NCBI GenBank assembly: GCA_027604005.1
Contig: JADGJT010000192.1
Location: 1 to 41,067, forward strand
Direction: 5' to 3'
Length of the DNA stretch: 41,067 nucleotides
Source of the DNA: Dinochytrium kinnereticum
Lineage: Eukaryota > Chytridiomycota > Chytridiomycetes > Chytridiales > Chytridiaceae
In this document: positions 1,664 to 39,529 of the stretch, one piece after another
Position numbering within the stretch: position 1 is the first letter of the stretch
Layout: every line of letters begins with the position of its first letter
Translations under genes and position numbers: made by a program
Notes under the pieces: model-generated
Told to the model about the DNA's origin: nothing
Database searches by the model: none
The model's input: the letters and a program-made list of their open reading frames with translations, nothing else

Positions 1664-3085
1664 TTAATGTCCACGAACCCAAGGATGCGCCAGCACCCCC
1701 TCCATATCCAATCTAACCCCAACATCCACCGCCGTCATCCTCATCAGAAGATCTAAACACTCCTCCCCAACATCCCGTCTAACCACACCAACCGGATACC
1801 ACGCACAGCCCTCAAAAGCAACACCAAGCGGTTCTCCCCTCCTGGCACTCTTCCCCACTTCAGCAGGCAAGCACCCAGGCCCATGCAGCAACGAGTAAAG
1901 CACCATCCCAAGCGCAAACACATCCGCCTGAAAAGGATCGGCGGTTAAAAGCACCGAAGACGAAGGATGAAGGTTGGGAAGGATCTCAGGAGGGGTCATC
2001 TCACGGGTGCCATAAGCAGTGAGACGGTACTGACGGGAGGCGGTGGTTGCGTGCCCAAAGTCACAGAGCTTGACGGACAAATCCAAAGGATCAACAAGGA
2101 CATTCTCCTCCTTGAGGTCACCATGCGTGATACCCATACCGTGCAGATGGTGAACGGCTTTTGCGAGGTTTGAGAAGAGGGTGCGACAAGATGACATGGG
2201 TGCGGGGTTGAGGGGGTATGTGACGGATGGGGTTGAGAAGGAAGGCGTGGCGGTGGAGGGATCGTATTCCCGACGCGACATGGCGAGATTCCATGACCAA
2301 AGATCCGATGAGCCTGATGAGATGGGGAGCGAGCAAGATTTTTTTTGGCGGTCATTCCAAAACGTCAAAGGAGGGGAGGAGACGGAGGAGAGGGAGAAAG
2401 CAGAGTGACCATGAAGCTCGGTTATGAGGTAGAAATGCCTGGCGTCCTCCCAATGCGAGACATGGGTGAGTATGTTGGGGTGCGGGTTCTGACTTGAGAT
2501 GAGGTCGAGCACTCGAATCTCTGCGGGAAGGTCACGTTTGTTCTTGCTGCTGCTGCTGCTGCAGTTGATCCGATATATGATCTTGATGGCGTGCGTTGGC
2601 TGACCACGAGAATGAGAAGGGTGATGATGGCGATCATCCTTCTCCCGCCTTTCGCCGCTCGCGACACTGGCAGAAAGGACAACCCCATTTGACCCAAACC
2701 CGATAATGCCGTGAACAGAGAATGCGTCCAAGAATATAGAGTTTCGAAGCGCATATCTGACTGCGATGCGGGCGTTGCGCTCATTGGGGTCTCTGGTTTC
2801 TGAGTGATCATTGATGCTATCCTGGTGAGAGTCTGTGAAAGCAGTGGTGGTGGTGGTTGATGCAGTGGTGTGAGAAAATCCCGAGTCGAGACGCAGGGGT
2901 GTCACTTTGGAGAGGAGGTGGCTGATGTGGGGTGGAGGAGGTGGGGGAGGCGGGGAAGGAGGCGGCGTGATGATTCCCAGGTTGACGGTGGTGTGTGATG
3001 CAGCTGATGAGGAGAATGAGCAGAAGGAGGTGTACCGCATGGAGGGTGAAGGCGGAGGGGAAGGGGGGAGTGGGTGTGCAGGCAT
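1664..3085 (-). CDS. Serine/threonine protein kinase, non-RD type, long disordered N terminus
   Basis: Single-exon gene of 473 residues from ATG 3085. The first ~120 residues are rich in Pro, Ser and Thr, including a run of nine prolines. The kinase fold follows: glycine loop GFGSNG near residue 130, ATP-binding Lys in HAIKII near 168, catalytic loop HGDLKEEN near 321, DFG near 342, and TPPEIL in place of the usual APE. The open frame extends further upstream without an ATG, so 3085 is the first usable start. The Arg before the catalytic Asp is Gly (HGD, not HRD), so this is a non-RD kinase and may not need activation-loop phosphorylation. About 75 residues (roughly 225-299) are inserted between the hinge and helix E. 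They are Ser-rich and could hide an in-frame intron. The general shape resembles fungal Sks1/Ran1-type kinases, but I would not assign an orthologue. Confidence 0.9.
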   Translation of the reverse strand: MPAHPLPPSPPPSPSMRYTSFCSFSSSAASHTTVNLGIITPPPSPPPPPPPPHISHLLSKVTPLRLDSGFSHTTASTTTTTAFTDSHQDSINDHSETRDPNERNARIAVRYALRNSIFLDAFSVHGIIGFGSNGVVLSASVASGERREKDDRHHHPSHSRGQPTHAIKIIYRINCSSSSSKNKRDLPAEIRVLDLISSQNPHPNILTHVSHWEDARHFYLITELHGHSAFSLSSVSSPPLTFWNDRQKKSCSLPISSGSSDLWSWNLAMSRREYDPSTATPSFSTPSVTYPLNPAPMSSCRTLFSNLAKAVHHLHGMGITHGDLKEENVLVDPLDLSVKLCDFGHATTASRQYRLTAYGTREMTPPEILPNLHPSSSVLLTADPFQADVFALGMVLYSLLHGPGCLPAEVGKSARRGEPLGVAFEGCAWYPVGVVRRDVGEECLDLLMRMTAVDVGVRLDMEGVLAHPWVRGH

Positions 3086-3721
3086 GGTTGTTTGATTGTT
3101 GCAGGTTGGTGAGCAAGAGTAAATGCAGCGCAAGTGGCTAGTAAAACACGAGCAGAGAGCCTTTATTTATACTGTTTTCAAGCCAGGAAGGAGTGCGTCA
3201 AGGACAGCGTGTGCTGAACAAGTCAGTCAGTCAGCCAGCCAGCCAGCCAGCGGAGAAGAAGAAAGTCCATTCGCATTGAGTCAGAACACTCTCGCTCCCT
3301 TCACAGAAAGTAAAATATTCCGAACACCCTTCATGAATATTTTCAAAAGAACATGTCAACATGTTCACACTTCCCCTTCAACTTTCAAACCCAGAAGAAG
3401 GTTCACAGATGCATCTTTGTGACTCAATCGCCTCTCACCTCAACCACATCCTCCACCACCCGCTGCTGAGCGAAGGGTGCTGTGCTTGCTTCTGTTGGCC
3501 TCAACGTCCATGCTGATGCGCACACAGCTCGCTCGTCGAGGATGCGTGTTCGGAGTCAGGCCAAGGCTGGTCTAGACCCCTTATCCGTCCCTTCGCAGCA
3601 ACGACAAAAGTTTGGCATTGGCATATACTCCTCAACCTATGACACTCCCTGGTTACCAAGCCGTTAGGTATCGAGAGTGCTCCTGTTGGTTCGTTCCTAT
3701 CGTTGTGTGCAGGCAAGGTGG
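3086..3721. other. Upstream region of the kinase gene
   Basis: No supportable gene. It should hold the kinase promoter and 5' leader. A tetranucleotide run, CAGT changing to CAGC, lies at about 3222-3251. The rest shows no repeats or recognised sites. Confidence 0.5.
3222..3251. repeat. CAGT/CAGC tetranucleotide microsatellite
   Basis: Three CAGT-type units run directly into about five CAGC-type units, in the upstream region of the kinase gene. A simple repeat with no evident role. Confidence 0.85.
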
Positions 3722-4865: not shown

Positions 4866-6198
4866 TTACTTCTGACCAGCAGCAGCCTCACGGGCGAGAG
4901 CCTTGAGACGCTTGGAGGTGCGCGCAACAGACTTAGCGCCCATGATACCTCCACCCCACTGCCTGCGGGTCTCCTCAGCCTTCTCATTGTCTATAAAAAA
5001 GAGGGATTGAGTAAGTTCAAGTAAAAGGACCAGTAAGATAGATATAAACCAGGAAGAAAGAAAAACTCACAGTTGATCTTAACGGCAGACACAAGAGCAG
5101 CAAGCTCGCTCTTGTCCTCAGGGCGAACCTCAGTGATGGCAAGCGCGGTGGCAGTCTTCTTGTGCACAACAGTCCCAAGCCTGGACTTGGACTTGACAAT
5201 GGCGTAGGGCACACCCATCTTCCTGCAGAGGGCAGGGAGCCAGAGAACGATCTCAATGGGGTCGACATCGTGGGCAATCAAGACAAGCTGAGCCTTCTTG
5301 GCCTCAATAAGGGCAGCAATGTGGTTGATGCCGTACTTGACGACAACGGGCTTCTTACCCTGGTCGATCTTGCCACCAGCAGCAACCTTCTCGGCGGCAG
5401 CGGTGAGACGGGCCTTCTTCTCAACCTTGGTCTCGGGGCGGTACTTGGTGAGAAGCTTGAAGGCCTGGGTGGCTAAAGATTAAATTCATTAGCTCCCTGA
5501 TACGACATCCGCATGGACCAAACTGCAACTCAGTTGAAAGCTCACCAGTGTTCTTGTCCAGGGTCTTGGTGAACTGGTTGATCGCGGGGGGGACCTTCAA
5601 GCGCTGCTTGAGGATGGTCTTCTGCCTCTGAAGACGGACATACTCGGGCCACTTGACGAAACGAGTAAGGTCACGCTTGGGCTGAATGCTGGCACCTAAT
5701 TCATGGCAAAACGTTGAGTGTCAGAAGCTAATAACACCCAATATGAGACCAAGACAAAAACTCACCAATGGCGAACGAGCGGGAGTTCTTCTCGATCAAG
5801 GGGTTGGCGGGAGCCTTGGTGGCGGTCTTCTTGACTCCGAGAGGAGCGGCAGCAACCTTCTTCCCCTTAGCAGCGGCTTTAGGAGGCTGTTTGGTTTGGA
5901 CAGAGAGGACAGGCACGTCAATAAAAACGATAGAGCCTCGGTTTTGGTACAGTTGCCTCCCGATTCATGGTTTTCCAGAGTCCTGCTGTCACCCACGGCC
6001 TGCATGCAACACATCACCAGGCAACGTCCTCTCAACCATCCATCCATCCCATCCATCCATCCGGCCCATCCATCCGCATCCCAGACCGCCATCTCCTCTC
6101 CATATCCAATGAGCCATCCCTCGATCATCATCATCCTCAACCCCTCGATGACATCCTGCAAGTCGTCCAAGGTCCCGTCGTCGCCATCAACTCACCAT
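4866..6198 (-). CDS. RPL8: Ribosomal protein eL8 (L8/L7a), large subunit
   Basis: A protein of the 60S ribosomal subunit. Five exons: 6196-6198 (the ATG alone), 5766-5886, 5546-5695, 5071-5472 and 4866-4990, giving 266 residues, normal for fungal eL8. The start was decided by splicing. The long open frame over exon 2 has no ATG, but an AAACAG acceptor puts exon 2 at [10 protein letters not shown], and 309 bp upstream an ATG is followed directly by GTGAGT. Family signatures are plain: [19 protein letters not shown], the L7Ae-type core with [10 protein letters not shown] and HDVDPIE, and the C-terminal QWGGGIMG. The first intron contains a CATC tandem repeat. I looked there for a box C/D snoRNA, since animal RPL7A introns carry them, and found a C-box-like GATGATGA but no matching D box. 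It is divergent from TMEM18 with 96 bp between start codons. Confidence 0.96.
6036..6076. repeat. CATC tandem repeat inside eL8 intron 1
   Basis: About nine imperfect CATC units with a few interrupting bases, within the long first intron of the eL8 gene. Probably a simple-sequence expansion. Confidence 0.85.
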
Positions 6199-10309: not shown

Positions 10310-11920
10310 ATGTTTCCGCGAGGCTCTCAACTGGACTCGCTCCACTACTTGGCCACTGAACTGTCGGATCCTCAGGTTGGGAAGACGTCCCCTTGCGACG
10401 GGGGAGATGCTAATATCATCTGGTGTTGTTGAAGGCATGCCTCACTCTCGCACAGGTGCTGTTGGCACTTCCTGATGGGCAGGGGAGAAGTGTTGAGCTG
10501 GCACTCCAGTTTTTTGAGGAGGCCGCACACATGGGTATGGTTGAGGGAGCGAGGTCAGCGGCAACCATCTACCATGAAGGTTCCGATGAGGTCCCAAGAA
10601 ACGGGAAGAAGGCAAGGCATTGGATGCGAATGGCTGCAGAGCTTGGATTTTACCAGGGGTGGGGGGTAGGTATTCACAGCGACATGCAAAACGGATTAGA
10701 GGGTAAATCCTTCATTCCAATCTTTTTAGATACTTGGAGACTGGTATTGGGGAGCAGCTGAGAACGACAAGGATGATGACGACAAGGAGTTTGACGTGGA
10801 CAGCTTGGACCTTCCTCAGTCTGGAGACTTGAACCGTCTGAGCATCGTCAAGGCAATCGCCTGCATGTACCAGCAGAAAGCGATTGAAGCGTGGAAGATG
10901 GGCGCACGCGAATACGAAGATGTGCACTGCATTAACCGCATCGCTGATCATTACGTCGCCGAGGATCGTATAGAGAAGGCGTCGGCATTGTGGGAACGAG
11001 CATCGGCCAAAGGCGATATTAAAGCGGCCAAGGCGTTAGTGAAAGTACATGCTATGAAGAAGGCCACTGGAGAGCTGGAAAAAGGTCAAAGGGCTGGAAA
11101 GAAAGCAATCTTGAAACCCATGATCTCTGCAACGGAATCTGACCCCTCTGATGACGAGGACACGGCGGCCTCTGATTCTCCTAGAACGATTGCACAAAAG
11201 TACATCAAGTATAGCGAGATTGCCGCCTCCGCCGGAGATCCATCCTACCTCTCTCAATTTGCGAGCTTGAACCACGAAGGTCTTTCAGCTGGTGCCGAAG
11301 AGCTTCTTCCGCGTAACCCACCCTTGGCTTTGGACCTTTACATCAAGGCCCACGAAGCTGGTGCCCCGTCAAGTCATTCTCTTCTATCGGCAGCATATAT
11401 TCTCATGGAAGGTGATGTTGGAATTCCTCAAGACAGGGTTCGGGCTTTGGAATTATTTGTTGAAGCTGCGAGAGAGGGATCCGTGGCTGGGCTGGTTGCT
11501 GTTGCAGATGCTTACATGGAAGGTGTTGATGGACCTCCTGATTATCAGCGATCGTTTGCATTGTACTCTGAGGCCGAGAAGCTTGGAGATGTGAGGGCTG
11601 CGTGGAAGCTTGGAGATTGTTATCGGTAATTGTACATCGTTTTCTGAAAAAAAATGATTTCATGGATTGCTTGAATGCCTCTCGTGTTGTCCTCTGGAAC
11701 TGACGGCTTTTCTTTGGTTTTGGTGGTTAGGGAGGGGTTTGGTTGTCTGAAGGATGACGTGGCTGCTTTTGAATTTTACAGAAAGGCCGCGGAAGCCCAT
11801 GATTCTGACGCTATACGGAGGCTTGCTCAGTGTTACTGGGATGGAGAGGGATGCGAACACGACCCAGTCAAAGCGGAGCGTTTGATGGCGTCGTTAAAAT
11901 CGGAGGAGGCTTTTTTTTAA
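10310..11920 (+). CDS. Sel1-like repeat (SLR) protein
   Basis: Four exons (10310-10375, 10435-10665, 10730-11625, 11731-11920) give 460 residues. At least six Sel1/TPR-like helical repeats are visible, for example ALQFFEEAAHMG, KARHWMRMAAELG, ALELFVEAAREGS, SFALYSEAEKLGD, AFEFYRKAAEAHD and ALDLYIKAHEAG, each followed by an A-x-x-x-L/I-G/A-x-x-Y half. An acidic low-complexity linker (SDPSDDEDTAAS) splits the array in the middle. SLR proteins act as adaptors: yeast Skt5/Chs4 activates chitin synthase and Hrd3 serves ER degradation. No signal peptide, membrane helix or CAAX box is seen, so neither role can be assigned. The first intron uses a GTTGGG donor, which is unusual, but phase and branch site (GCTAATATC) support it. 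Confidence 0.83.
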
Positions 11921-13803: not shown

Positions 13804-15573
13804 TCAAGGCAGTTGGGCTGCAGTATTAATGTCCTTTCCTTCCTCAGAGAAACGATGCTGGCACATCAATGACTGACTCCCCTCGGCCGCAGTGGTGTCA
13901 GGGCTGGGAGCTTTGATAAAGTCGGGAAAGGTTCCAGACCGTCGAGGCGCCATCGAAGATGAGGACGGACATCTATGCATCCCAATCACACCTGCGGCTG
14001 AACTTCCATAGATTCCAACCGGTCGAGGCATCTTCTGCCTTGTTGTTGACGACGACAAAGATGTCCTTGACGCCTCTTCAAAAGAAACTTTCAGCACAGA
14101 TGAAGAGTGCGGGGAGCGCCTCTCTCTAGACTTGGATGATCTCTCTCGTGACCCAGACCGACGGCGTCTGACCGCCTTCCGCACGCCAAGCACCGCATCT
14201 TGCTTGCAGATCGGGCACAAACGGTTTCCAGGTATTGACCGAGTGACGGGCCCTCCACCTTCACCCGGCGCAGTTCTCGGCTTTCCTAACAGCCAAGGAT
14301 CCACACATGACTTGTGGAATCGATGGCCGCAGGCGAGTTCTCGAATCAGGTCTCCAGCTGCATAAGACAAGATGCATATCGCGCATGTCGTATCGCTAGA
14401 GAGCTGCGAGCAAGCTTCGGAGGCAAAAGACCCACAAGAGGCTCCCGAAGTAATGGAAAGCCGCGCAGAAGCTGAGGACGGTGCTAGACGATCTGGGCCG
14501 AGCGTGATGGGGGATAGGTTGGTGGGACAGCCCAGACCTGGGGCCACTACTCGACGGGTCATGACTGTGCACAGCGGTTTTGGGGAGTCGATGACGGATG
14601 TGTTGCTTTTGGCTGATGCGACATCGATGGTATCCTTTGCAAGGGAGGGAGGGGAGGCAAGAGTGTCGGATGAGGGGATTAAGGGTGAAACTCTGGAACA
14701 CTCATTAGGGCTTTGGGAACGTCTTTGGGAAGAATCCCCTTTCCGTCGCGATTTGAAAGGAAAGAGCGGTAAAGAGTCAAGATCGGTTTTGGTGAGATGC
14801 TCCATTCGAGACGCCGTTGCAGTCATTGGCGGCTGGCCCTGCGGAAGATGAGAGACCCCAAACACCATCATCATTGGGAAAGCCATCAGGTCCCTCCTCA
14901 GCTGGCCCGTCCTGGAGTTGGCACGAGGATGCCGCTCGACTTCATTCCCATTGTCGTCTACCTCGGTTGGCACTTGCATCCAGTACGTGCCGCTGGAATA
15001 ATCCACCTCTCCATCCAGAAGCTTGATCCGCAAAAGTTTGATACCCATCAATATGGTAAGGAGCAGCCACATCAGTGGACCTGCAAGCACCTCTGCCAGG
15101 GCTACGTATAGCAAGGCATGAGGCTCGACACCCTCAGCGCGGTCCTTTATCAATGCCGTCACAAGACTCATGAGTCCCCACACCCAGACAAACAATCCCA
15201 GGTTGAACGTGACGTTCGCATACTTCAAAAACACGCCGCGCCATGAAGGCCTCTGAGTCCGTTCAGTTGAGCCTGCCGGCCCAGTTCCCAGCATGACCGC
15301 AATCTCACGCCTATCCAGTATGTACTGGAGAGGCTCCCTCGGAAGCCTTAGAATACACATGGCGGCCTCCAAAGTCATCCAAAAAGCCGCAACGTCCATC
15401 CATGGAGGAAAGCGGCAGTAAAGCGCTAGAAGAACAGTGTGGAGCACGAGGACGGTGATTTCTCTTGCCACGGAGAACATGACGGAGGAGAAGGAGGTTG
15501 TGCCGATGGTGTTGTGCCTGGAAGACTCCTGGGACCGCGCCAGGAACAGGACGCTCTCAAACATGCAACTCAT
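13804..15573 (-). CDS. Multi-pass membrane RING-H2 E3 ubiquitin ligase candidate
   Basis: Single exon; first in-frame ATG at 15573 gives 589 residues. The N-terminal ~200 residues hold three or four membrane segments (around VLVLHTVLLALY, the FWMTLEAAMCIL helix, LFVWVWGLMSLV and LMWLLLTILMGI). A Ser-rich, probably disordered stretch of about 200 residues follows. The RING-H2 finger lies near 420-485: CAIC, then CGHRFHKSC, VDPWLL, and CPIC. The gap between the sixth and seventh metal ligands is about 30 residues, longer than usual, but all eight ligands are present (C-C-C-H-H-C-C-C). The last ~100 residues are Arg- and Ser-rich. The layout, membrane anchor plus cytosolic RING-H2, suits an ER, Golgi or vacuolar E3 ligase; the target is unknown. 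A short upstream coding exon cannot be excluded, since the frame stays open to 15615 without an ATG. Confidence 0.85.
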   Translation of the reverse strand: MSCMFESVLFLARSQESSRHNTIGTTSFSSVMFSVAREITVLVLHTVLLALYCRFPPWMDVAAFWMTLEAAMCILRLPREPLQYILDRREIAVMLGTGPAGSTERTQRPSWRGVFLKYANVTFNLGLFVWVWGLMSLVTALIKDRAEGVEPHALLYVALAEVLAGPLMWLLLTILMGIKLLRIKLLDGEVDYSSGTYWMQVPTEVDDNGNEVERHPRANSRTGQLRRDLMAFPMMMVFGVSHLPQGQPPMTATASRMEHLTKTDLDSLPLFPFKSRRKGDSSQRRSQSPNECSRVSPLIPSSDTLASPPSLAKDTIDVASAKSNTSVIDSPKPLCTVMTRRVVAPGLGCPTNLSPITLGPDRLAPSSASARLSITSGASCGSFASEACSQLSSDTTCAICILSYAAGDLIRELACGHRFHKSCVDPWLLGKPRTAPGEGGGPVTRSIPGNRLCPICKQDAVLGVRKAVRRRRSGSRERSSKSRERRSPHSSSVLKVSFEEASRTSLSSSTTRQKMPRPVGIYGSSAAGVIGMHRCPSSSSMAPRRSGTFPDFIKAPSPDTTAAEGSQSLMCQHRFSEEGKDINTAAQLP

Positions 15574-16107
15574 GATGCCGTCGTCGTCGTCAGTGTGAGC
15601 GGTGGTGGAGAACAACTAACTGTCGATCCGGGGTGTATTTTTCGCGACCCCCTTGTCTCCCATTATTCTTAGACCCCTGTCGTTGACATGCCCTGCTGTA
15701 CAGAATTGTCACAGAGATTTGTCGGTGGCAGTTGGCGTTGAAAAAGTCCGCAAAAGGTCTAATAAAGAAAAACACCCGACTTTTGTTAACCTGGGTGCTT
15801 TTGTCTGAGGAAAACGATAAAAATATAAGCATCATTATATTATGGCTCTATTCATTTCATCTTTCGCTTGTCCTGCCACTGGCGCTTGTGGCTCTTGGCT
15901 TCAGCGTGTGTGTATGTTTAGAGCCTGAAAGCTCAAAGCTCAGCGCGCAGGATCGTTTCCCCCCTTTTTTTTCTTCACCTTGAATGCTCTTCGCGTCGTC
16001 CTGAAGCTCTATGCAGCTTGCTGGAGGGTTTCCTGTCTGTCTGCTCTCGAGACGAAGAAGGGATCGACTGAAAAATCAAAAGTGCCACAAGTGGTATTCT
16101 GTGAGCC
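15574..16107. promoter_or_regulatory. Divergent promoter region, RING gene and DUF962 gene
   Basis: A 534-bp gap between the RING start (-) and the DUF962 start (+). It must hold both promoters. No TATA box or known fungal element was recognised, and no coding exon was found. Confidence 0.45.
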
Positions 16108-21752: not shown

Positions 21753-22625
21753 ATGTCCTTTTTCCGCCGTCTTCTCCAGCCCTCGAAGCTTCCCTACATC
21801 GCCAGCGGCTTTGTCGTCTACTGCTCCAGCACTTACTTGACATATCATGGCTACCGTATCTACCGCCTCCCAGATCCCCCAGCAGACATCGCCGACCCCA
21901 AAGCGCAAGGGAAGTTTGCTCAGGTCTACTCAAATCTGGCAAAAACCTACGACAAAAGCATTGAATGGGATGAATGGCTTCTCGGGCTTAAAAGCAAGCG
22001 CTCTTCATTACTGAAGCAGGCAAAGGTGGGTTAAACGAATGAGGAGGTTGCATGCATCGAATTGTTTGTTATTCATTGCGGACGTTTGTTGTTTGTTTGT
22101 TTTTTCCAGGGCGACGTGATCGAGCTAGCTGCTGGGACCGGTCGGAACGTCGAGCACTATCCTCCCAAAGTCCTCCTAAAATCCATCACCTTCACAGATG
22201 GGAATGAGCATATGTTAGAGCAAGCATTTCAAAAGTACGCTTCCCACCGTTCGTCCCTTCCCCCCACCACCTTCTCCATCCAAGACTCGAGCTCAATTCC
22301 CCATTCCGCCGCATCATTCGACACAGTGGTAGATACTTTTGGTCTATGCTCCTTCTCGGACCCAGTGGCGAGCTTGAAGGAGATGAAGAGGGTGTGTAGG
22401 GCGGATGGGAAAATACTGTTACTGGAACATGGTCGATCAACTTGGGGATGGCTGAACAGCGCATTGGATAAGAGCGCGATGGATCATGCGAAGGAGTGGG
22501 GATGCTGGTGGAATAGAGATATTGAGAAGATGGTGAAGGAGGCCGGTTTGAAGATTATCAGTTGTAAGCGATACCATCTTGGCACAACCTATTCGATCGT
22601 TGCGGTGCCAGAAGATGCACAATAG
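21753..22625 (+). CDS. OMS1-like mitochondrial class I methyltransferase
   Basis: Two exons (21753-22025, 22110-22625) give 262 residues. The N terminus (MSFFRRLLQPSK) is basic and amphipathic and is followed by a hydrophobic helix near residues 14-32, suggesting mitochondrial import and inner-membrane anchoring. The SAM-binding fold starts at the exon junction with motif I, ELAAGTGRN, then FTDGNEHML, SFDTVVDTFGLCSF and ILLLEHGRS. These match the Oms1/METTL7-like branch of the Methyltransf_11 group. Yeast Oms1 is an inner-membrane protein found as a suppressor of respiratory (oxa1) mutants; its substrate is not settled to my knowledge. This copy is shorter than yeast Oms1. It is convergent with the DUF1308 gene, 158 bp between stops. 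Confidence 0.83.
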
Positions 22626-25122: not shown

Positions 25123-28100
25123 CTACACCTCAACCCCACCACCCCCCAAAACAGCCCTCTCCACCGTCAAAAACAAATCCTGTAGCAACAAGCTCAACCT
25201 AGCCCCCTGCAACCAAAACCTCGAAAAGTTCCTCAGCGCCCTCAAATGCACCCTAACCCTTCGACAAGCATCCGTCACCTCCGCATCACCCCCAGGTTCA
25301 GTCTTCCCAAGAGTCTGAGCAGCAATCACATGAACAAGCGACGTCTGAAAGATACAAAACGCCACAAAAGGGGTGAACCAAAAAAAATTCGGGTTGGTCT
25401 CCATCACTTCTTCAAGCAGATCAGACGCTCTTCTGGCGGCCTCCAAACTAGCCACAAAGTTAGGGCAAGACATTGCATCAACAGGGGTTTGCGAGTTGGG
25501 TTCATGGCCATCACCGGCCGCACCACATCCGGCCGAGTCGTATGAAGTTGACCCTTGGCCCTGTCCTTGAAGGTAGGCCATCATAAGCGGTCGATTAAGG
25601 AGGACAACTGCAGCGCAGTGAAAGATATGAAGGTATGCAACCTCCCAAGAAGCTGGTGATAGTCCTCCCGAAACCGAATCCAAATTGCTCCAATTCGCAG
25701 CGAACCTTACCCTCTTCCCCGTGGGAGCAGGTGAAGCTTCACTGTCATCTCCCTCTACAGAGCAGGAGCGAAGATACATCAGTGGCTCCGGATCGGGAGA
25801 GAGGAACGGAGCAGATGAGTCGTGAAGGTGGGCGAGAAGTGAAGAGTGTCGAGAGGAACGGAGATGAGGCATGAAAGGAATGGCGGAAGAGAGGGGAACG
25901 GAAGGGGGATCCGCCATCCATAGCGGGAGAGATTCAAGCCAATCCTTTAAGTCGGATTCGATGGCCTTACGCTTTTGTTCAGGACCAGGGAGAGAGACGA
26001 GGACAGAACCGGGAATACCAGGAGAGGGTATCTTCAGCATGCCCGTATACCTTCATTTAAGAGATAGAGAGAGAAATGATTAGAAAGGTTAAGCAAGGCC
26101 AACAACAACCCAAAGCAAAAATAAACGTCAAAATAGAGAAAAAATGCAAGCAAAAGTGAGAAAACATAACTCACTCTACAACCCTCCCATAAATCCTCGA
26201 CAACGCAATATAATAATCAAACGCATTATCCCGAAACACATTCCCCCCACCCCCCCGCTTCCTCTCCCTCCCATCCCTATCCTCCCTCCTGCTCTCCCCC
26301 GCGACACCCGCCGACGCCAAAATGGTCAAATCCAAAGTACTGTGTCCTCCAGGCTCACCAGGGCCCGGTTCCGGGTCGGCAGCCCCCATAGAAAACCACA
26401 CCCGTTGAGGGACAGGGCAAAACACCCTCGCATCTCTCTCCAAAACCAGCATGGAGCGATCAGCAGCAGAGGCAGTGTAACGGTCCATAATAAAGCAGCA
26501 CCACCAAAGTCGTCGTCGGAGTTCCTTTTCGTACCAGGTGAGAGGGCCAAAGAGGTCGGTAACTTCAGGGAAGTCGGGATCAAGGTCGAGCTTAAGGGAT
26601 TGGGCCATGCGTATAGCCATACCAGAGTACATCCACGAGGCAGCAGCTGTTAGCGGGAACGTACGGGGAGGTGGTGATGATTGTTAAGAATACAATATAC
26701 GTTATCAAAACAGTAAAGAAGATTAAATGAATTAATGCCATAAATAAATCTACCTCTCCCGGAACCTGAGGCGTAAGTCACAAGCATAATCAAGGCGTAG
26801 ACAGTGTCGGTGGAAGGAACATCCATAGCCTTGCTAACGAGCACCCGTGCCTGGCTATAAAACACATCACCCTTATAATAAAAAGAAAACCAAATGTATA
26901 AAACCAGTAAGTCGCCAACAAAAACACCCCGTCAAATAAAATAAGATAAAATAAAATAAAGCAGCTAGCATGTTCCTCTTACCGCATTATACATATCCAC
27001 CTCCTCTCCTCCCCCAAGCGAAGTCGCAGCAGCTCTAGCAGCCGCCAATACAGCTGGATGCCTGGAAAACCTCGCGGCAAGCGCATACATACTAGCAAGC
27101 ACAAGCGGCGTCTGTCTCGCCAAATTCTCTCTAAACATTCTCTCATGGATACAGTGTCCCAAAATCGGGTTTGCGTAAATGAAGAACAAATCCAAAAGCT
27201 CATCCAAGGCGTCAGGAGGAACGTCCCACATGGATGTCGCGGCTGAAGTGGAAGGTGGGACTATGGTGGGCTGTGGTGATATCCCAAGTGGCCAGGGAGA
27301 AGTAGATACTGAGGTATTGCGAGAGGTCATACCACCTCCTGCAAAAGCTGAGTGAAAGTCTCCACCACCTTGTCCGGCATTTGGAGCGACGATAAAGGAG
27401 GGCGAAGATGCGTTGAACATAGGGTGAGTATTTGCGTTTGGTTGCGAATGCCGTTGTTGTTGGTGTTGATGATGATGCTGCATTTTACGGACGTGCGGAG
27501 CAAAAGCAGTGAGAGAAGTTGCGGTGGTGCCACCATTTGGAGAAGTTCCAATGACAAAAGCGTCGGTTTGGTCCTCGATAGGGGAAGGGTGAGGCTGGTA
27601 CTGTGAGGAAGAGGAAGATGATGTTGATGATGGAGGTACAAGAGGCTTCTGTGACGATTGTGGCTAATGATCGAAATGCGTTTACTGATTAGTTTCCAAG
27701 GAATAAAAAACATAAAAACATAAACATCACAAACCTGTGACTCAACCCCCACACCCTCAGCTCCCAGAACAGCGACAGCATCCAGCGCATCAAACATAAT
27801 CCCAAACGGATTGGTGATATCCGAAAGCGACATCATCCCTCCCTGCACGCCACTCCCCCCTTTCCCCCCATCACTCTCACTCTCCCTCCCTTCCGGAATC
27901 CCACCAGCAGCAGCCAGTCCAGGCTGCGGCGTCCCGCCTCCCATAAGCGAGTCAAAATCCCGATCAATCATTGTCCAAACATCGTCTGGTCCACCCCCAG
28001 TTGTCGAACCTGAAGACGCTGATGCGGCCTGAGGCGTAAACAAGTGAAGAGATTGGAAGGGAGGTTGAATGCGTTGTGCGAAGGGTTGAAAAGTCTGCGT

Positions 28101-28759
28101 AGGTGCGGGAGGAGGGGGTTGATTTAAAAAGGGTGGTATTGGAGGATCTTGATGGCCAGTCGAAGGAGGGGGGGGCAGCACTGCCACTTCCTTATTCTTT
28201 CGCCGTCTCTGTTTAGGCGGTGTCGCAGTTCCCGCAGTCTTATCAGCCTTCAGGAGCGGCTGTTGCGAATTCTGCAGGTGAATCAGGTGGTGTTTGGAAT
28301 CACGGGTATGAGCCTGCTCATCGTCCTCGTTTTCTATAACGGTTTCGGGGTCAACACCAGTGGATCCAAGGTATCCCTCCATCTTTTGAAGCCGAGATTC
28401 AAGGTCCCGAATGTGGCCTTGCTTTGGTCCTCGTTTTTTGGCTTCACGGCTGTACGTGCATTGAAGGTCATGAGAGGCGCATTGATGGCACGAGGGTTGA
28501 GCGCTGTCGCACTTGACTTTCCGCTATTATAACGAAGACGGAAGAAGAGGGCGGTGTAAGCAAGATCCCTCACAACGTCGGTATGTTTTCAACAAAGAAA
28601 GAAGAAAAGGTCAGGTCGAACCCTATTGCAAGTGTCGCAAGCTTTTGTTGTCCGCTTCCTCTTCATCCCAGAGGAAGCAGCCGATCCTGGAGATCCCATC
28701 GGTGTCGAATCATCATAAGAGACGTCCAGCGAAGAGGACGCGCTCTTCCCCGCAACCAT
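25123..28759 (-). CDS. Zn2Cys6 transcription factor with fungal-specific TF domain
   Basis: Six exons (28622-28759, 27735-28523, 26983-27663, 26754-26871, 26175-26646, 25123-26050) give 1041 residues. The binuclear zinc cluster is split by intron 1: KACDTCNR in exon 1 and RKVKCD..CHQC..C in exon 2 give C-x2-C-x6-C-x6-C-x2-C-x6-C at residues 41-68, a perfect match. A basic linker (REAKKRGPKQGHIRDLE) and a short coiled coil follow. Residues ~120-430 are Pro-, Gln- and Ser-rich. The fungal_trans domain begins near 445 (DLFFIYANPILGHCIHE), with WMYSGMAIRMAQSL and ELRRRLWWCCFIMDRY, the typical core. It should act in the nucleus, binding CGG-type sites as a dimer. The start is the first ATG after an in-frame stop. 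Introns 1 and 2 use GTTCGA and GTTTGT donors. The regulated pathway cannot be told from the neighbours. Confidence 0.9.
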
Positions 28760-29188: not shown

Positions 29189-32100
29189 TCACGCGCTGTC
29201 GTACGCGTCAAAGGTCGTAAGCGCAATGGCAAATGCCTCCATAGGGGTCATGGGGTGACGAACATCAAGGGTGAAGTAATCCGGTCCACATCTCCCAAAC
29301 TGCATAACAATGTACGAGTCTGAATGGAAACAAAACCGCGCCAATGAATACCGCATATTTCAAAAGACAAGGACGCAACAAATAAAATAATAAATAAGAA
29401 CACGAAAGAAAGTAAGAAGGAGACCCACCATTTTTCCCAATAATCAGCTGGAAATTCTTAATACTTGGTTGAGTCACTCGACCGCCAAAGTTGAGGCAAT
29501 GGCTTTGGGTCGTCTCGTTCCATCTCGGTGGTTTATTTTGAAGGAACAGGAGTTTCTCAGTGTTTTGAGCTTTGATGTCCGCCATAATATCCGTCGAAAG
29601 ATTCTCCTAAACGTGGAAAATTAACTTCAGGAGTCTGAGAAAACAGAACAGAATACGTAATGTTGAAACTTACCAGATTCTCGGTGACATTAAGAGAGGG
29701 GATGACGACTTCCATTTCTCTGGGAAGAACCGTCTTGCTCTGGGTTGAAATAAGAATTATTTTTTCAAGACAGACCAGATATTCTTACGTAAGTGACAGC
29801 AGCGAGCTCTTTGAGGCCTTTATCTTTCAAGTTCTTGTTGTAATGCCGTGCATCGAAGAGGATAAAGTTTGTGCGTTGAAAGTTGGCCCTATGATATGAA
29901 GAAACCGTAGCCGTTCAGTCGATTTCCATGAAGGATGTTAGAGACGAGATTTTGTTTAATTATCCCAATGCCCGTTCTCACTAATATTAGAGGACCCTTT
30001 CTATCCCCTTTCATCGATTTCAAAATCAGGACGGAAACCCATACTTCCATTCATTCATAAAACCTCCCTTCCATTACCGACCGCCTATGCCACAGTCTTT
30101 TTGAAATCTCCCTCGACCTCTTCCCGTTTCTCATTATAAAAAAAACCAACAGAGACGTATAAAATAATGCAATCACCCACCTCAACTTTGCCACATAATG
30201 TGAAGACTCCTTGCTCAAATCCTCCTGACTCGTGGAGATGAGGTAATTCACGCTCTTGCTCTTCTTCCTTTTTCGCGCAGCCAACAAAAACTTATCATCG
30301 GCCTCGTTATAAAGGAAAAAGGAAGGGTGGGATTTATCAAGCATATTTTTCTTGCGATAGAGTTTGCATCGAAGGATGGATTCGAGAGGAACACGGCTAA
30401 AAGTTTCCATCAAAAAAAAAACAAACGAAATGAGGTTTGGTTTGGTGGGGTTGCAGTGAAAGGAAGACAAAGCAAGGAAGACATCACCCAACTTACAGAA
30501 ACACCTTTGGCGACACCAACTCCACCGGCTTCAAGTCCTTGTTAACCGCAAACGGCAACGTGTTCTCCTCCTCAGTTCCAATAGCGACCACAGCATCCTC
30601 CGCGGCAGGCACAACCGCCTCCTTCCCCTCCTCCCCACCATCACCAACAACAACCATCTCCGGTTCAAAAGGTTTCCTACTCGGGTCTTCAAGCGTCGTG
30701 GCCGAAGTCGACGCCCAAGTTAATGCCTGAGAAGGTGGTAGAGGTCTCGGAGACGTCACAGCGACTTCATCTCTCTTTGGCCCATCAATGGATGACGCGA
30801 AATCAGCGTCTTCGTCTTCGTTAAGGGAAGCTGAGAAAGCCCCTTTTCGGAGGACGGGCGGAGCGGTGATGGGGTTTGGTGAAGGAGATGCAAAGGCTGT
30901 GGACGAGGTAGGTGGCGGAACGTCATCCTCCTCTTCGTCTTCATTCGGATCATAAGGTTTTGCATAAGCCGAGAGATCAATCTTCTTAGGTGGTGACGGC
31001 ACAGCCAAATCCTGCCTCGACGCCGTGCTTCCAAAAACCCTCGTAACAGCCGGAGTGGCGGTCATAGCTGATGAGATTGGGGACGCAGTAAATGCGTTAG
31101 AAGGGGACGATGTGGTCATGCTTCCGAAAGGAGAGGACGGGACGAGAGTTTGGACACTTGATGAGAGGGGTGAAAAGGTTGACGAGGCAGCAGGCGTAGT
31201 TGCTTTGTCGGCGAGGAGGTTGCGATGTTGAATGAAATCTTGGAACTCGTTTCGGCCCTTATCCGCCATAAAAGGTTCTACGATAGGGCTATCCATAGAG
31301 TAGATGGCATTGCCAATGCTGAATGGTTTGACTGAAAGTGAAGGAAGAGATGCCGAGGAGTCGAGGAAGAGAACTCTTTAGCAAATAAAGAAACACGCAG
31401 CACGCTTATGCCGTTGCTGTCAAAGGGATAATAAAGAATAAAAAGGCACAAACCGGCAGTAGCCTCCGCAGCTCTTTGACTCCTCTCCCTCTCCAATTTT
31501 TGCATCTGTACAGCTTTTAAAGACTCATCGGTAGGGATCGGCCCCGCAGCTATTGTCGACTTTCTCAGCCTAAAGTTCTCAGGAAGTCCACCACCCGTTC
31601 CCCAAGGCCTACTCTTTTCAGCGCTCTCTTCGACAGCCTTAACAGAAGTAGAAGCATAAAGCGACTCTTTCGAAATATAATTTGCCTTTACAGAAGTAAC
31701 CCCAGCCTGTCTGTTAACCTGCTGAGGCGGAGGCGCCTCATCCATCCCCAATATATTACCACGGATATGATCATCTTCATAATTATTCCCCTTCCCAACA
31801 TTCACAGGACGAGGAGCAGGAGAAGCCAAAGTCGTCACTTTTGAAGGTTTGGGCCTGACAACCCTCGATTCGGGGGCCTGATCCTCATCTTCCTCCTCAA
31901 CTTCGTCTTCATCCTCTTCACCACGCTCCTTCCGTTGTCTTCTCTCCTTCTCACGCTTTCTGGCACGTCGATCACTGACATAGTCGTCATCTTCGGCTGC
32001 ACGAGCGCTTCCTGATCTACGTCGATCAGGGACAACGATGGCGACCTTTTCGACAGGTTTGATGGTTTTTTCGATGGAGGATGGTTTGGGGGGATCTTCT

Positions 32101-32420
32101 TCTGTGATAACTTTCTTCTTAGTAGAGGCGGAGGGGACATCGCGGCCTTCCACCACCGCCTTAAGTTTGGCATAGGATTTGTATCTGCGCGCTGACAAAA
32201 TGAAGAGGCAATGTTTGCTTAATGATGTTGCAGATGGTGATAATACAGAGAGATGGAATGTACCAATTTCCTTGTCTGAGGCAATGTCCTTTTTGTCAGG
32301 CTTCCTCCCCTCCCTTTGAAGGAAAGTGTGCTCCCACTCCTTGAGCTCCTTCTTGATGGCCTTGAGGTCGGCCTGCAAGTCTCCAGCACTCTTCCCTCCG
32401 GCAGCAGCGTCAGTGGGCAT
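29189..32420 (-). CDS. Tubby-like protein with an Sld2/RECQL4-like N-terminal segment
   Basis: Eight exons (32264-32420, 31454-32191, 30497-31331, 30181-30396, 29789-29888, 29674-29739, 29429-29606, 29189-29319) give 806 residues. The Tubby C-terminal domain fills residues ~565-806: [103 protein letters not shown] and the end [12 protein letters not shown]. The barrel with its central helix and the basic RKRKKSK patch that binds PI(4,5)P2 in animal Tubby are both present. Residues ~17-65 ([36 protein letters not shown]) match the pattern of the Sld2/Drc1 and RECQL4 N terminus, unexpected in a Tubby protein. The middle is disordered, with an Arg/Glu-rich charged helix near 130-170. In animals Tubby proteins link phosphoinositides, IFT-A and GPCR entry into cilia. 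Confidence 0.9.
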
Positions 32421-33160
32421 GTCGTTTGGATGCTCGGATGAGCAGGTATGTTGGGCAGGAGGCTGGACGTGAGATGGATGGATTATTGGACTTGAGCGAG
32501 CGTTGGTTGTGATCAGAATGTCAACAGGTGGTTTGTTTGCCAGTCGAGTGACAACTCAACCTGGAATTTTTGACAATCTGCGTTGTGCTGAAGAATATCG
32601 TCCTGCGTTTTTATGGCGTTCAAATTCCCCCCAAACGAGCGACGTTTCGCTGTCTGGCCAGGTGAGAACGAGGGAATCGAGCGCCTGAGGGGCTGATAGC
32701 GTGTCATGCAGCTTCAACGGCAGCCTATTCAGGGGAAGGTGGAGATGCAGGCACTTCAAACTGCACCTTGAACGCATGGTGAGCATGGGCCGTCTGTGGG
32801 TGTGTGGCAAAAAAAGAGGGTTGTGTGCGTGAATAAAGGCGTGAGCATGCATAGATACTCTTATTTTTATACCAGCCAAGGTATTGGATTGACGGCCGCG
32901 CTCACTCATTCCTCAGGGCCATGTTGCATCCTTCCTTTCACTCTGAACCCCGTTCAACACACAATATGTAATGTTGGTTTTGGAATGTCGCTTTTAATTG
33001 GATACTGGTCGGCTTTACTGCAACCGCTTTGACATGAGAGACAAATGGCTCGGAGTAACTAGCAGTATGCTGCAGGTTAGCAGTCTCATCTCCAGATCCT
33101 ATTTATTGCAAATACGGAGCAATGCGCATTGCTCAACGATGCAAAAGTGCTCTTGGCATC
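32421..33160. other. Upstream region of the Tubby gene
   Basis: 740 bp between the Tubby start (-) and the PI31 stop (-). It must hold the Tubby promoter and the PI31 3' region. Short open frames are present on both strands, none with a domain or convincing exon partners. Confidence 0.5.
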
Positions 33161-35371: not shown

Positions 35372-38300
35372 ATGTCCAAAGCAAGGACGTGGGTGCTATG
35401 GTTTCTAATCGTTTCATATATCATTTTCGTGCAAGCAGGGTAAAGTCTACCTGAACTGACAGCACTAAAAACTCACGCTTAACAACCCCCCCTGAACAGA
35501 ACCAGGAAAACTGTCCGGTTTCTAACACTAGCCACCGCCTCCTTGCCCTCAATTAAGGCCGATCTAAAGTCCTACAGAAAAGTCATAGACTCCCTAAAGA
35601 CCCATCACGGTATCGACCTTCAGGTCACAGTCGCACCGACCTACTCTTCTTCTGACTATGCAGCACTTGTGGGAGCACTGATGAGACTGAATAGTAGCGA
35701 CTTTGATATTTATATGGTTGATGTGGTTTGGCCAGGAAGTTTCGCGGATGCGTTGCTTGATTTGGCGGGGTACTTTGGAGAGGATGTTGGCAACGAACAT
35801 TTGAAAGGTGTTTTCAAGGCAAATTTCATTGGGGGAAGGCAAGGTCCGTGAGCTTTTTTTTGTTGGTGTGTTTTGTTGATTTGTTTTTTGTTGGCTTTTG
35901 GATTGCTAGATTAGCGTAGGAATTTTGCTCTGCGTTTCTGTTATACTGTTTCCCCACATCCAATGAACCCTGTTTCATTAGTTTTTGTCGTAAATGTACA
36001 ATACTATTCTTGGTCACTTCGTCTTAGTCTCCTTGTCAATAATGCCTCTTTTTTTTTCCTTCTTTTTTTTTTTGCCCATCTGGCACATCTTATTTGTGAG
36101 GCAAGATACTTTCGCATTGCTCTTCTTCGTATCCCGCATTCCTTTTTCTTTATCCCATTATTCATTATTCCAAAGTTTTGGGATCCAATATTATTCTCAT
36201 CCTTTGCATGTATACATTCAACCTGCCACAATGTGTTTTATTCCTTAACTTTTCGTTCATTTCTACCTTTCTCAAACCTTTTCATTAACGCCTTACATGT
36301 TTCATGGCCATACTCCGCAATTTTCTAGTCGCAGTCCCATTCTCCGCGGATTATGGCGTCTTCTATTACCGCACCGACCTTCTCCATAAATACAACTTCA
36401 CGTCCCCTCCCGAAACCTGGGACGAAATGGAACACATGATGGAAACGATTTTACCGGCGGAACGGGTTGTGAATCCTCATCTTTATGGATATTCGGGGCA
36501 GTTTAACTGTTGAGTAATCTTTCCGTTTTCTCCAGATTTTTTCAAGGGGCTTTTTTATGGGGTTTAGTACGTGCTGGCCCTTGCTTTGCTGTGGGGTCGA
36601 GCTTTTCTATGAAATTGATCTGAGGGTCTTGTTTTTATTGTATTGATGAATGACTTCCGATCTTCTCTTTGTGAACTTGGCAATCCTTGAATTATAATCT
36701 TGATTCACTCTTATTAATATGCCCACTCCCTCTTTTTTGAAAAAAAAAACACAACAAACTAGCTTATGAGGGCCTCACGTGCAACTTTCTTGAGTGGGTT
36801 TCATCAGTCGGAGGTGGGAATATTATTGAAATGAACAAGACTGTGTCTATTCGAAATGACAAAGTGCAGAGGATGCTGGAGAGGATGAGAAGTTGGGTAA
36901 TAGAGAAGAACTATATAGGAAACTCGGCATTAACGTCTAACGAGAGGAGTTCAATGGAAAGCTGGTTGAACGGGTGAGCGCATTTGTCGAGGTTTTCCAC
37001 TTTACTTTCTTGCCTTTTATTGAAGGAAAGAATATTGCTACTTAAGTAGAATCATTTTGTGATTGAAGATAAACTTTGAAGGTTGATTGAGCCCTATCGA
37101 TAAATGATTCTTTACATATGTCTAACACCTCATCATACCCTTTAAGAAACGTTATCTTTCTCCGCAGCTGGCCCTACATACACACCATAACAATGCGTGA
37201 CCCAACCTTTCCACACTTGAATGGCAGTCCTGCCTTCAACATGACTCAAATTCCTGGGCTAGAGAAAGGCCAAAGTGCCTCAGCGTTGGGTGGATGGCAT
37301 CTGGCTGTGAATAAACATTCAAAGGATGTTCAGAGCGCTGTTATTGCGGTTGGACAACTGATGGGACGTGAGTTTCAGATTGATAGGGCAAAGTTATCGG
37401 GGGTTTTACCGACTATTAGAAGTATATATGAGGGTGAGTCTTTCGTGCTTTTTCTTTTCTGTTGAGAAGGGTAATAAGATTCGCTTTCATAGATCCAGAA
37501 TATTGCGTTTTCAATCCTCTATGCACTGTTTATGGATCCTTAAAGGTTGTTGCAAGGCCTTCTTCGGGGACGGCGCCATATTATCTAGAGGCTTCAGAGG
37601 CTATATATAGGCATGTGAACAGGATTCTACGGGGGGAGTTAGAGGTAGCTTCTGGACTTGCAACCATGTGAGTATTGTTACTGCCAAGTGGGTTTTAGTT
37701 TCGATTTGGGATGATGCGTAGGTTAAACGAATCTTCAACCAGGGAGGTCGAGATTCAAAAAGCTATGAAGACATATGTTGAGCCTCCTCGGGTCTATAAG
37801 TCACCAGGTAACGTTTCCAACACAGTAATATAAAGATGCTACCAAACTAATTCACGAATAAAAAACAACCGCCAACGCAGTCTACATATCCCACTTTGAA
37901 CCAATATCCCTGATCTTTCAAGCACTTGCCATCCTCTTCTCTCTCCTCTCTCTCGCTTTTTTCATCATCTCTTTAATAAATCGCGCCCACAAGATCTTCA
38001 GTATAACAACACCAACCTTTCTCCTCATATTGACGGCTGGAACGCTCATGGAGTATGTCAGCATGTTTGCTTACACTGGACTACCAACGACTCTAAAATG
38101 CGTAGCTCAACCTTGGCTTGTTGTGGTTGGCTTTTCAACGGTGTTCTCCGGAATGACTGTGATGGAGTGGAGGGTTTTTACAGTATTTAGGTATTCAACT
38201 ACCCATGTCTTCTCATTTTTGCCTTACCGCTTCGTTGTTTCCTGGATAACGCTGCATTTTATTCCGTTAACAACCGTACCCTTCCACAGGAACACGTATC

Positions 38301-39529
38301 AAATGAAAGCAAGACATTCCGACATGATCCTCCTAAAATGTTGTGCGGCCACCACATCCATCAATCTCCTCATCCTCACAACATGGACCCTCCTAGACCC
38401 TCCTCGCCCAGCCCTCAAATTCTGGACAGACGATACCCAATACTGGACTTGCTCTTCACTGACTGTGATGTCAGATTGGATGTTTAATGGGATTTTGGTG
38501 GGTTATAATGGTTTGGTGGTGGGGGGTTTGGCGGTTTTTTTGGCATTCAAGAGTAGAACTTTGAAGGTTGGGTTTGGGGAGGCGATGCATTTGAGATACT
38601 GCGTCTATTCGGTCACGCTTCTTTGCTCGATATTGGTGAGCCAACCTCAATTCTCACAAAAGCGATTGACAACCTCACCATTTTTATAGATCCCTCTTTC
38701 CTATATGAACAACCTGGGCCCTCGGTTTCGTTATGTCTTCCGATCGTCTTTGATCATAATGTCATCTTTATCTGTCTCCATCAACATATTTTTACCAAAG
38801 ATTCTGATGATGAGACGACCAGAGGCAACGGAGTATGGGGATTCAAGGGGAAAGTTGAGCGGTGAAGACGGGAAGCTTTTAGGGAGGAGGCTTTATGGGG
38901 GAGGGCAGGGATCTATTGGGAAGAGAGTGGATAGTGAGTTAAACGTGAGTGATATTTCTTTTAAAAAATTCACATTAGTATAATGTTTTGGTGAGAATAG
39001 ACCCTTTTCCATACTTTTTTTTTTTAATTTGGTCTGAAAATAGGCCGGATTACATGTGTTTTTTTTTTTGTGTCTAACACTGAAATGTTCAGATAATTGA
39101 AGGAAAGATACTTCTTCGACACGGAAAGTCAAAGGTCGCGCTAAATCTTATACCCTGGGACATCTACCTCGCCATCCTAATCCCATCATCTAAACTTCTC
39201 ATCCTCCATCCCGTCAACACTTCCAACGAGGTAAATCCCATTCTCCCCGCCCAAAAATAAGAATTCCCCCAATACTCACGTAAAAAACTGAAAATCAGAC
39301 CTCCTCAACGACAAGAGGCTCCTCGCACCTCATCCGAAAAATTGACATGGACGATCGAGACGAAACATCAGATCAAATAACTCTAAGGTTTACTATCAAC
39401 GAGATGGCACACCATCAGGTTCAATTCGCCTCTGCTGAGCAGAGAGAGGTCTGGATTGAAGTTTTGAGGAAGATTGTGGGCAGCGGAGAAAGCGAAGGGG
39501 TGATAACATCAACTCTGGACATGAGCTGA
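35372..39529 (+). CDS. Fusion receptor: secreted sugar-binding domain + class C (GABA-B-like) 7TM + PH-like domain
   Basis: Twelve exons (35372-35439, 35500-35843, 36329-36508, 36763-36973, 37147-37433, 37493-37667, 37722-37807, 37881-38190, 38290-38635, 38690-38944, 39093-39230, 39299-39529) give 876 residues. Residues 1-23 are a signal peptide (WVLWFLIVSYIIFVQA). Residues ~25-420 resemble family 1 ABC sugar-binding proteins of the ThuE/maltose-trehalose type: DIYMVDVVWPGSFAD, VAVPFSADYGVFYYRTDLL, PPETWDEM, YEGLTCNFLEWV, FLRSWPY, LGGWHLAVNK. Seven helices follow (about 455-715) with class C landmarks WRVFTVFRN, LRYCVYSVTLLCSIL and FLPKIL, closest to GABA-B receptors. Residues ~755-865 read as a PH domain (EGKILLRHGK, LAILIPSSKLLIL, QFASAEQREVWIEVL). 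Exon 5 was started at 37147 and not at 37168 because this keeps FLRSWPY; both are in frame. Likely a plasma- or ciliary-membrane sugar sensor signalling through G proteins. Confidence 0.88.

Follow-up and report, generated by a model that had tools for sequence, protein, structure and literature searches.

Does the gene at positions 35372-39529 of a 41,067-nucleotide (nt) contig of the chytrid Dinochytrium kinnereticum (JADGJT010000192.1; the whole stretch is called the window) encode a single receptor assembled from three parts? An original prediction, made from the sequence, had joined a bacterial-type sugar-binding ectodomain, a seven-transmembrane (7TM) core of the class C G-protein-coupled receptor (GPCR) type and a PH domain in one spliced frame. 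We found that profiles, splicing and relatives all bear out this three-part layout.

The receptor gene is read in one spliced frame

The gene lies on the forward strand and has 12 exons that form one spliced frame. The start (35372), stop (39529), strand and exon number first proposed all match a hand-made model joined at GT-AG sites. We checked this model with a homology-guided spliced protein-to-DNA aligner, using three templates (proteins of other fungi) that were run singly. Exons 3 to 9 were identical in all three runs (Table 1); the templates shifted the start of exon 5 to 37147 and that of exon 7 to 37743. Exons 10 and 11 equaled the hand model in two of three runs, and the run with the relative P0012 gave a small intron inside exon 10 and a shorter exon 11. 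Every run carried short doubtful pieces, at ends or introns. Exon 1 was reached by none of the templates (0/3), and is based on direct reading, the GT-AG sites and the similar N-terminus of the relative P0013. The template-corrected protein has 869 amino acids (aa) and not the 876 first given, a length that would result from exon starts at 37147 and 37722. Residue numbers below are those of the corrected model; early scans used the first hand model.

We considered whether the model could be an artefact of chance or of exon picking. This was ruled out by the template-guided splicing, by the better match of the corrected model to the Pfam family SBP_bac_1 (60.9 bits, compared to 50.8 for the first model), and by agreement with deposited models of paralogues. 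Applied to paralogues, the aligner reproduced two deposited proteins (98.8% identity over 819 aa and 100% over 554 aa), and the deposited D. kinnereticum proteins P0025 and P0024 match the aligner models from contigs C103 and C537. All 12 exons of the window gene are free of stops and frameshifts. The protein has N-glycosylation sequons in the ectodomain (five) and in the C-terminal tail (two).

The ectodomain resembles alpha-glycoside-binding proteins

We found that the ectodomain is, by sequence, a solute-binding protein (SBP). Its match to SBP_bac_1 (E = 2.7e-16) is over the Pfam cut-off of 26 bits. Among solved structures, the best matches are the Thermus alpha-glycoside-binding protein (6j9w series, 5e-62), MalE3 (6dtq, 4e-43) and the trehalose/maltose-binding protein TMBP (1eu8, 5e-40). 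The periplasmic-binding type claimed for the ectodomain therefore held at the level of sequence, in both the profile and the PDB matches, and the predicted Venus flytrap is of Type II rather than the usual Type I.

As positions of the likely sugar site we took the depositors' mutants named in the PDB titles of the Thermus protein (D118A, W287A, W287F, R356A and R49A). In the alignment, three of these four positions have the same residue in the window protein: D118 corresponds to D145, W287 to W318, and R356 to R385. More broadly, 98 alignment columns do not vary among seven bacterial rows, and the window protein has the conserved residue in 66 of them; for the other family members with long ectodomains the count is 60-68 of 94-98, and for the paralogue on contig C242 it is 45. 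We infer that the ligand belongs to the alpha-disaccharides (trehalose, maltose or sucrose type). Among the matches listed in a literature search, we found no paper on the ligand of the Thermus protein.

The ectodomain is not a free binding protein of an ATP-binding cassette (ABC) permease, as it is fused to the 7TM core and the PH domain in one frame. Judged by its relatives, it derives from ABC-importer-type binding proteins and is not one itself. The bacterial comparison set consisted of 80 of 597 relatives, drawn from 598 matched stretches, all but one of which code for relatives. For six of these 80 loci, picked before inspection, we took the longest downstream frame. Four of these frames are permease-like (L046, L049, L102 and L112), one is TreT-like (L047) and one GH65-like (L075). 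L049 and L102 were called permeases by eye; the other four were scanned, and their matches were well supported (TreT, E = 8e-137) yet all under the NCBIfam cut-offs. In a tree, a branch with 100/100 support separated 11 fungal ectodomains from the 80 bacterial ones, with tool warnings of long branches (P0016 and C242) and odd composition. This grouping would fit a single event in which a nutrient-import protein was recruited as a receptor domain.

A full-length structure model was made of the relative P0012, not of the window protein, with nine sequences in the alignment. In a Foldseek search with this model, ten alpha-glycoside-binding chains came first and class C receptors next; superpositions on the binding proteins were loose (root-mean-square deviation of ~12).

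The 7TM core is GABA-B-like

The region at aa 450-699 matches 7tm_3 with 121 bits (cut-off 33.5; E = 8.9e-35). Searched alone, the 7TM part has GABA-B2 as its nearest solved receptor (E = 3e-18). The class C cysteine pair between transmembrane helix 3 (TM3) and extracellular loop 2 is present (C517/C601), and TM7 ends with an xPK motif, FLPK (696-699). The original prediction called the 7TM core GABA-B-like. The likeness is confined to this core, because the ectodomain is of the Type II, sugar-binding-like kind, unlike the Type I (ANF) flytrap of animal class C receptors. The D. kinnereticum genome has four G-alpha loci over cut-off.

The cytosolic tail belongs to a family with a predicted PH fold

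We found that the PH assignment of the window tail is supported through its family, by profile, predicted fold and conservation. The P0012 tail (AlphaFold, Foldseek and VIA) has a predicted PH fold, a seven-strand sandwich closed by a C-terminal helix. The Trp of this helix is W845 in the window protein and is invariant in a ten-sequence alignment. A profile of the family tail gave 26 PDB matches, all of which we take to be PH proteins. Pfam PH (PF00169) was listed for 8 of 10 family tails. The excised P0012 tail scored 25.8 bits, over the cut-off of 25.1; the window tail alone, taken from the first hand model, scored 15.9. The domain would span approximately aa 748-852, compared to ~755-865 as first proposed. 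No catalytic family was listed by Pfam in the tail. The counterpart of the preceding linker in the P0012 model (698-728) has a predicted local distance difference test score (pLDDT) below 50.

The layout is shared by other chytrids and by paralogues

The original prediction knew of no described receptor with this three-part layout. The layout is not unique: we found it in at least seven chytrid species, in searches that scored only ~8000 candidates each. These are Phlyctochytrium planicorne (order assigned by genus), Phlyctochytrium bullatum, Chytridium lagenaria and D. kinnereticum in the Chytridiales, Lobulomyces angularis in the Lobulomycetales, and Thoreauomyces humboldtii and Powellomyces hirtus in the Spizellomycetales. 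The PH tail follows the 7TM core in 15 of 16 deposited relatives; P0027 and P0014 are further relatives from D. kinnereticum. Some deposited models look wrong at the tail: P0002 (L. angularis) continues into a Mog1 domain, and P0003 and P0004 have damaged first halves of the PH domain.

Within the D. kinnereticum genome, the layout is present on four contigs: C192 (the window), C103, C242 and C537, the last cut by the contig start. All four genes have a first PH exon of 138 nt, and exons of 180, 175, 65 and 310 nt are common to the window gene and the gene on C103. SBP_bac_1 itself was found on two of the four contigs, below cut-off, because each exon was scored alone.

Class C receptors are numerous in the assembly, with 7tm_3 matches on 17 contigs. 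We considered the possibility that the PH tail is general to these receptors and found no support for it: the tail profile was over its inclusion threshold on 4 of the 17 contigs (1.5 kb flanks, some cut by contig ends). These four are the contigs with a window-like ectodomain, and the next match was C266 (E = 0.55). Among non-fungal relatives, the tail had no significant match in 13 animal mGlu proteins or in the metagenome protein P0044. P0044 (997 aa) has SBP_bac_8 on 7tm_3; it shares 22% identity with the window protein across 352 columns at and near the 7TM core. This protein suggests that SBP-7TM receptors may extend beyond chytrids.

Three other D. kinnereticum loci carry an SBP ectodomain or a piece of one. 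L045 (C373, minus strand, ~0.9-4.2 kb) appears to encode a different type of SBP protein, in which a sugar-type SBP ectodomain is followed by a single transmembrane helix and, in the cytosol, by an SH3 domain (PF14604, E = 3e-7, 30.5 bits compared to a cut-off of 30, from a by-eye join of two exon pieces). In L044 (C213:24662-26233), an SBP ectodomain is joined to a single transmembrane helix with a short tail, much as in the tethered SBPs that gut fungi are reported to have. L043 (C537:2334-2432), just downstream of the C537 receptor, is a 33-residue ectodomain-like piece with 61% identity, perhaps the remnant of a tandem copy.

Features of the window

The neighbours of the receptor gene in the window are ordinary (Table 1). 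Three more window frames were scanned and had no family match.

Table 1. Coordinates of the receptor gene and of its neighbours in the window
Feature	Positions	Strand	Basis
Exon 1: start codon and likely signal peptide (aa 1-22)	35372..35439	+	direct reading; hydrophobic stretch aa 6-24
Exons 2-7: Type II sugar-type solute-binding ectodomain (~aa 27-440)	35500..37807	+	SBP_bac_1, PDB matches, aligner splice sites
Exon 2	35500-35843	+	
Exons 3-7	36329-36508, 36763-36973, 37147-37433, 37493-37667, 37743-37807	+	identical in 3/3 template runs
Exons 8, 9 and first part of 10: class C 7TM (~aa 444-703)	37881..38812 (37881-38190, 38290-38635, 38690-38812)	+	7tm_3, GABA-B2; exons 8 and 9 identical in 3/3 template runs
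Rest of exon 10: cytosolic linker (~aa 704-747)	38813..38944	+	corrected-model coordinates
Exons 11 and 12: PH domain (~aa 748-852)	39093..39475 (39093-39230, 39299-39475)	+	family tail profile, Pfam PH, AlphaFold/Foldseek/VIA on P0012 tail
End of exon 12: short C-terminus and stop codon	39476..39529	+	gene model
Protein kinase	1667-3166	-	
L7Ae-type ribosomal protein	4994-5479	-	
Sel1 repeats	10730-11626	+	
RING finger	13807-15615	-	
Methyltransferase	22035-22622	+	
Zn2Cys6 transcription factor	27330-28523	-	
Sld2/Drc1	31281-32555	-	

Proposed mechanism and alternatives

We suggest, and consider it probable, that the gene encodes a chytrid class C GPCR in which a bacterial alpha-glycoside-type flytrap drives dimer signaling to a G protein upon binding sugar, with the PH domain as an anchor or regulator on the membrane side. 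The extracellular flytrap, descended from a bacterial trehalose-, maltose- or sucrose-type binding protein, would close upon its sugar. By analogy with other class C receptors, a dimer would relay this closure to the 7TM core, which would signal via one of the heterotrimeric G proteins of the fungus. The PH domain, just behind TM7 at the inner face of the membrane, would position the receptor or tune its coupling. Its partner could be an acidic lipid, an inositol phosphate, or a signaling protein such as G-beta-gamma.

Several findings weigh against parts of this mechanism. In the ectodomain, the fourth Thermus site residue, R49, is Tyr76 in the window protein, and the full-length model of P0012 is weak there (mean pLDDT 64; predicted template modeling score 0.39). 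In the tail, Pfam PH was not listed for the full-length window protein with either gene model; it was listed in 3 of 17 full-length members (P0012, 20.2 bits; P0024, 12.6; P0025, 12.7) and was over the cut-off in none. The tail also does not contain the canonical phosphoinositide motif, which we take to be KXn(K/R)XR in PH strands 1-2, and a protein partner is therefore equally open. The tie to phosphoinositides raised in the original prediction thus stands as a possibility. On its side, all 15 readable rows have a basic residue at two positions, R756 and K761, and this conservation favors contact with an anion.

Another of these findings concerns coupling. Basic residues on the cytosolic side of TM3 and TM6 mark coupling-competent class C members, not the fold itself. 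In the window protein, the TM3 position (538) is Met, whereas it is Lys or Arg in 16 of 16 other readable rows (P0004 is gapped). The TM6 position (646) is also Met; 16 of the 17 other readable rows have Lys or Arg there, and C242 has Gln. Met538 and Met646 speak against ordinary coupling by the window copy, which may couple poorly because both basic residues are lost.

This loss might also indicate that the window copy is a ligand-binding subunit without coupling of its own that depends on a coupling paralogue as its heterodimer partner, the way GABA-B1 depends on GABA-B2. We regard this as unlikely, although there are further results in its favor. Compared to P0012, the window protein is 54% identical in the ectodomain and 40% in the 7TM core, and C242 shows the reverse (41% and 51%); the gap between the two parts is at most 6 points in 14 of 15 other members and 8 points in P0014, which has a partial ectodomain. 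The contrast recurs with P0026 as the reference (53% and 37% for the window protein; 42% and 52% for C242). In addition, the window protein keeps 64 of 70 family-conserved ectodomain columns and C242 only 49, without the residues of the DVVW, YEG and RSW motifs. However, P0003 and P0028 also have similar gaps relative to P0026, and the window contrast is absent with P0001 as the reference (41% and 39%). C242 retains the equivalents of the Thermus-site Asp, Trp and Arg, and its own TM6 position is the Gln mentioned above. Of the family-conserved 7TM columns, the window protein keeps 42/56, proportionally no worse than P0002 (49/65), P0003 (47/63) and P0016 (41/65); C242 keeps 43/56 and C103 52/53. 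The evidence for a special relaxation of the window 7TM core beyond the two basic sites is mixed. A more far-reaching version, which we offer as a long shot, is that chytrids have GABA-B-like sugar heterodimers of pocket-keeping and coupling copies, in which the PH domain reads the lipid state of the membrane as a second input. If this were true, zoospores would answer sugar only in the right membrane context.

Two other readings of the lost basic residues are quite improbable. One is that the protein is a transceptor or sugar-capturing protein, in which sugar bound by the ectodomain is taken up or tethered and the 7TM core does not signal. We know of no transport by class C 7TM bundles. Most relatives retain the class C cytosolic signature NE[SAT][KR], and a PH tail is usually a signaling or targeting module. 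In favor of this reading, similar SBP/PBP-7tm3 proteins of Plasmodiophora are called novel transporters (PMC4815078). The other, no better placed, is that the gene is a decaying, non-functional paralogue, with which the unlisted Pfam PH domain would also agree; against it are the intact exons, the conserved ectodomain columns, and the retained class C cysteines, FLPK motif and PH helix Trp. Finally, that two adjacent genes or a wrong model place the PH exons in a separate transcript would suit the poorly conserved linker, but it is most improbable because the PH tail follows the 7TM core in 15 of 16 deposited relatives and in the four genes described here, all four with a 138-nt first PH exon.

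Comparison with known systems

We place the window gene among the class C GPCRs of the fungal SBP type, from which its PH tail sets it apart. The pairing of an SBP with a 7TM core was already known. SBP_bac_1 was reported on eight class C receptor proteins of Allomyces (Krishnan et al. 2012, PMC3251606), and SBP Type II on approximately half of the class C receptors of anaerobic gut fungi (Seppala et al. 2016, PMC5168858), in a domain survey that covered only the region before the first helix. The PH tail appears to be undescribed. The term "PH domain" is absent from the main texts, supplements aside, of PMC5168858, PMC3251606, PMC12716839 and PMC5784254, and the SBP-7TM-PH layout was not found in open-licence PMC literature, among the matches listed (titles and starts of abstracts). 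The gut-fungal and Allomyces receptors are like the window family in being fungal, in having a sugar-type SBP on a class C 7TM core, and in lacking the cysteine-rich NCD3G domain; the window family differs by its PH tail, unmentioned in either main text.

The Thermus protein (6j9w series), TMBP (1eu8) and MalE3 (6dtq) share the ectodomain sequence and, for the Thermus protein, three of four mutated site residues. In contrast to the window protein, they are free ABC-importer binding proteins and not receptors. The likeness gives chytrid receptors a concrete, testable ligand class, the alpha-linked disaccharides. GABA-B subunits are the nearest solved match to the 7TM core and, like the window receptor, have no cysteine-rich domain. 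They differ in having a Type I flytrap and a coiled-coil tail, where the window receptor has a Type II flytrap and a PH domain.

Microbial systems offer partial parallels. The seven SBP/PBP-7tm3 proteins of Plasmodiophora brassicae also have a prokaryotic-type binding domain fused to 7tm_3. They belong to a protist and are read as transporters, and the text available mentions no PH tail (PMC4815078). Dictyostelium fAR1 is a class C flytrap receptor that reads folate and lipopolysaccharide saccharides for chemotaxis, and thus provides a behavioral precedent; the portion of its description available mentions neither a PH tail nor a sugar-ABC-type ectodomain (PMC5969738).

Descriptions of class C receptors usually focus on the ectodomain. 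A cytosolic PH domain conserved across three chytrid orders would be a built-in regulatory module, unmentioned in the class C papers searched. A parallel to this arrangement is found in the oomycete GPCR-bigrams, which also have a 7TM core and a C-terminal signaling domain in one chain. The C-terminal domains of the bigrams are reported to be catalytic (PIPK, INPP, AC, PDE and TKL; PMC6033456, PMC5784254), whereas the tail of the window receptor is, by our assignment, a non-catalytic PH domain.

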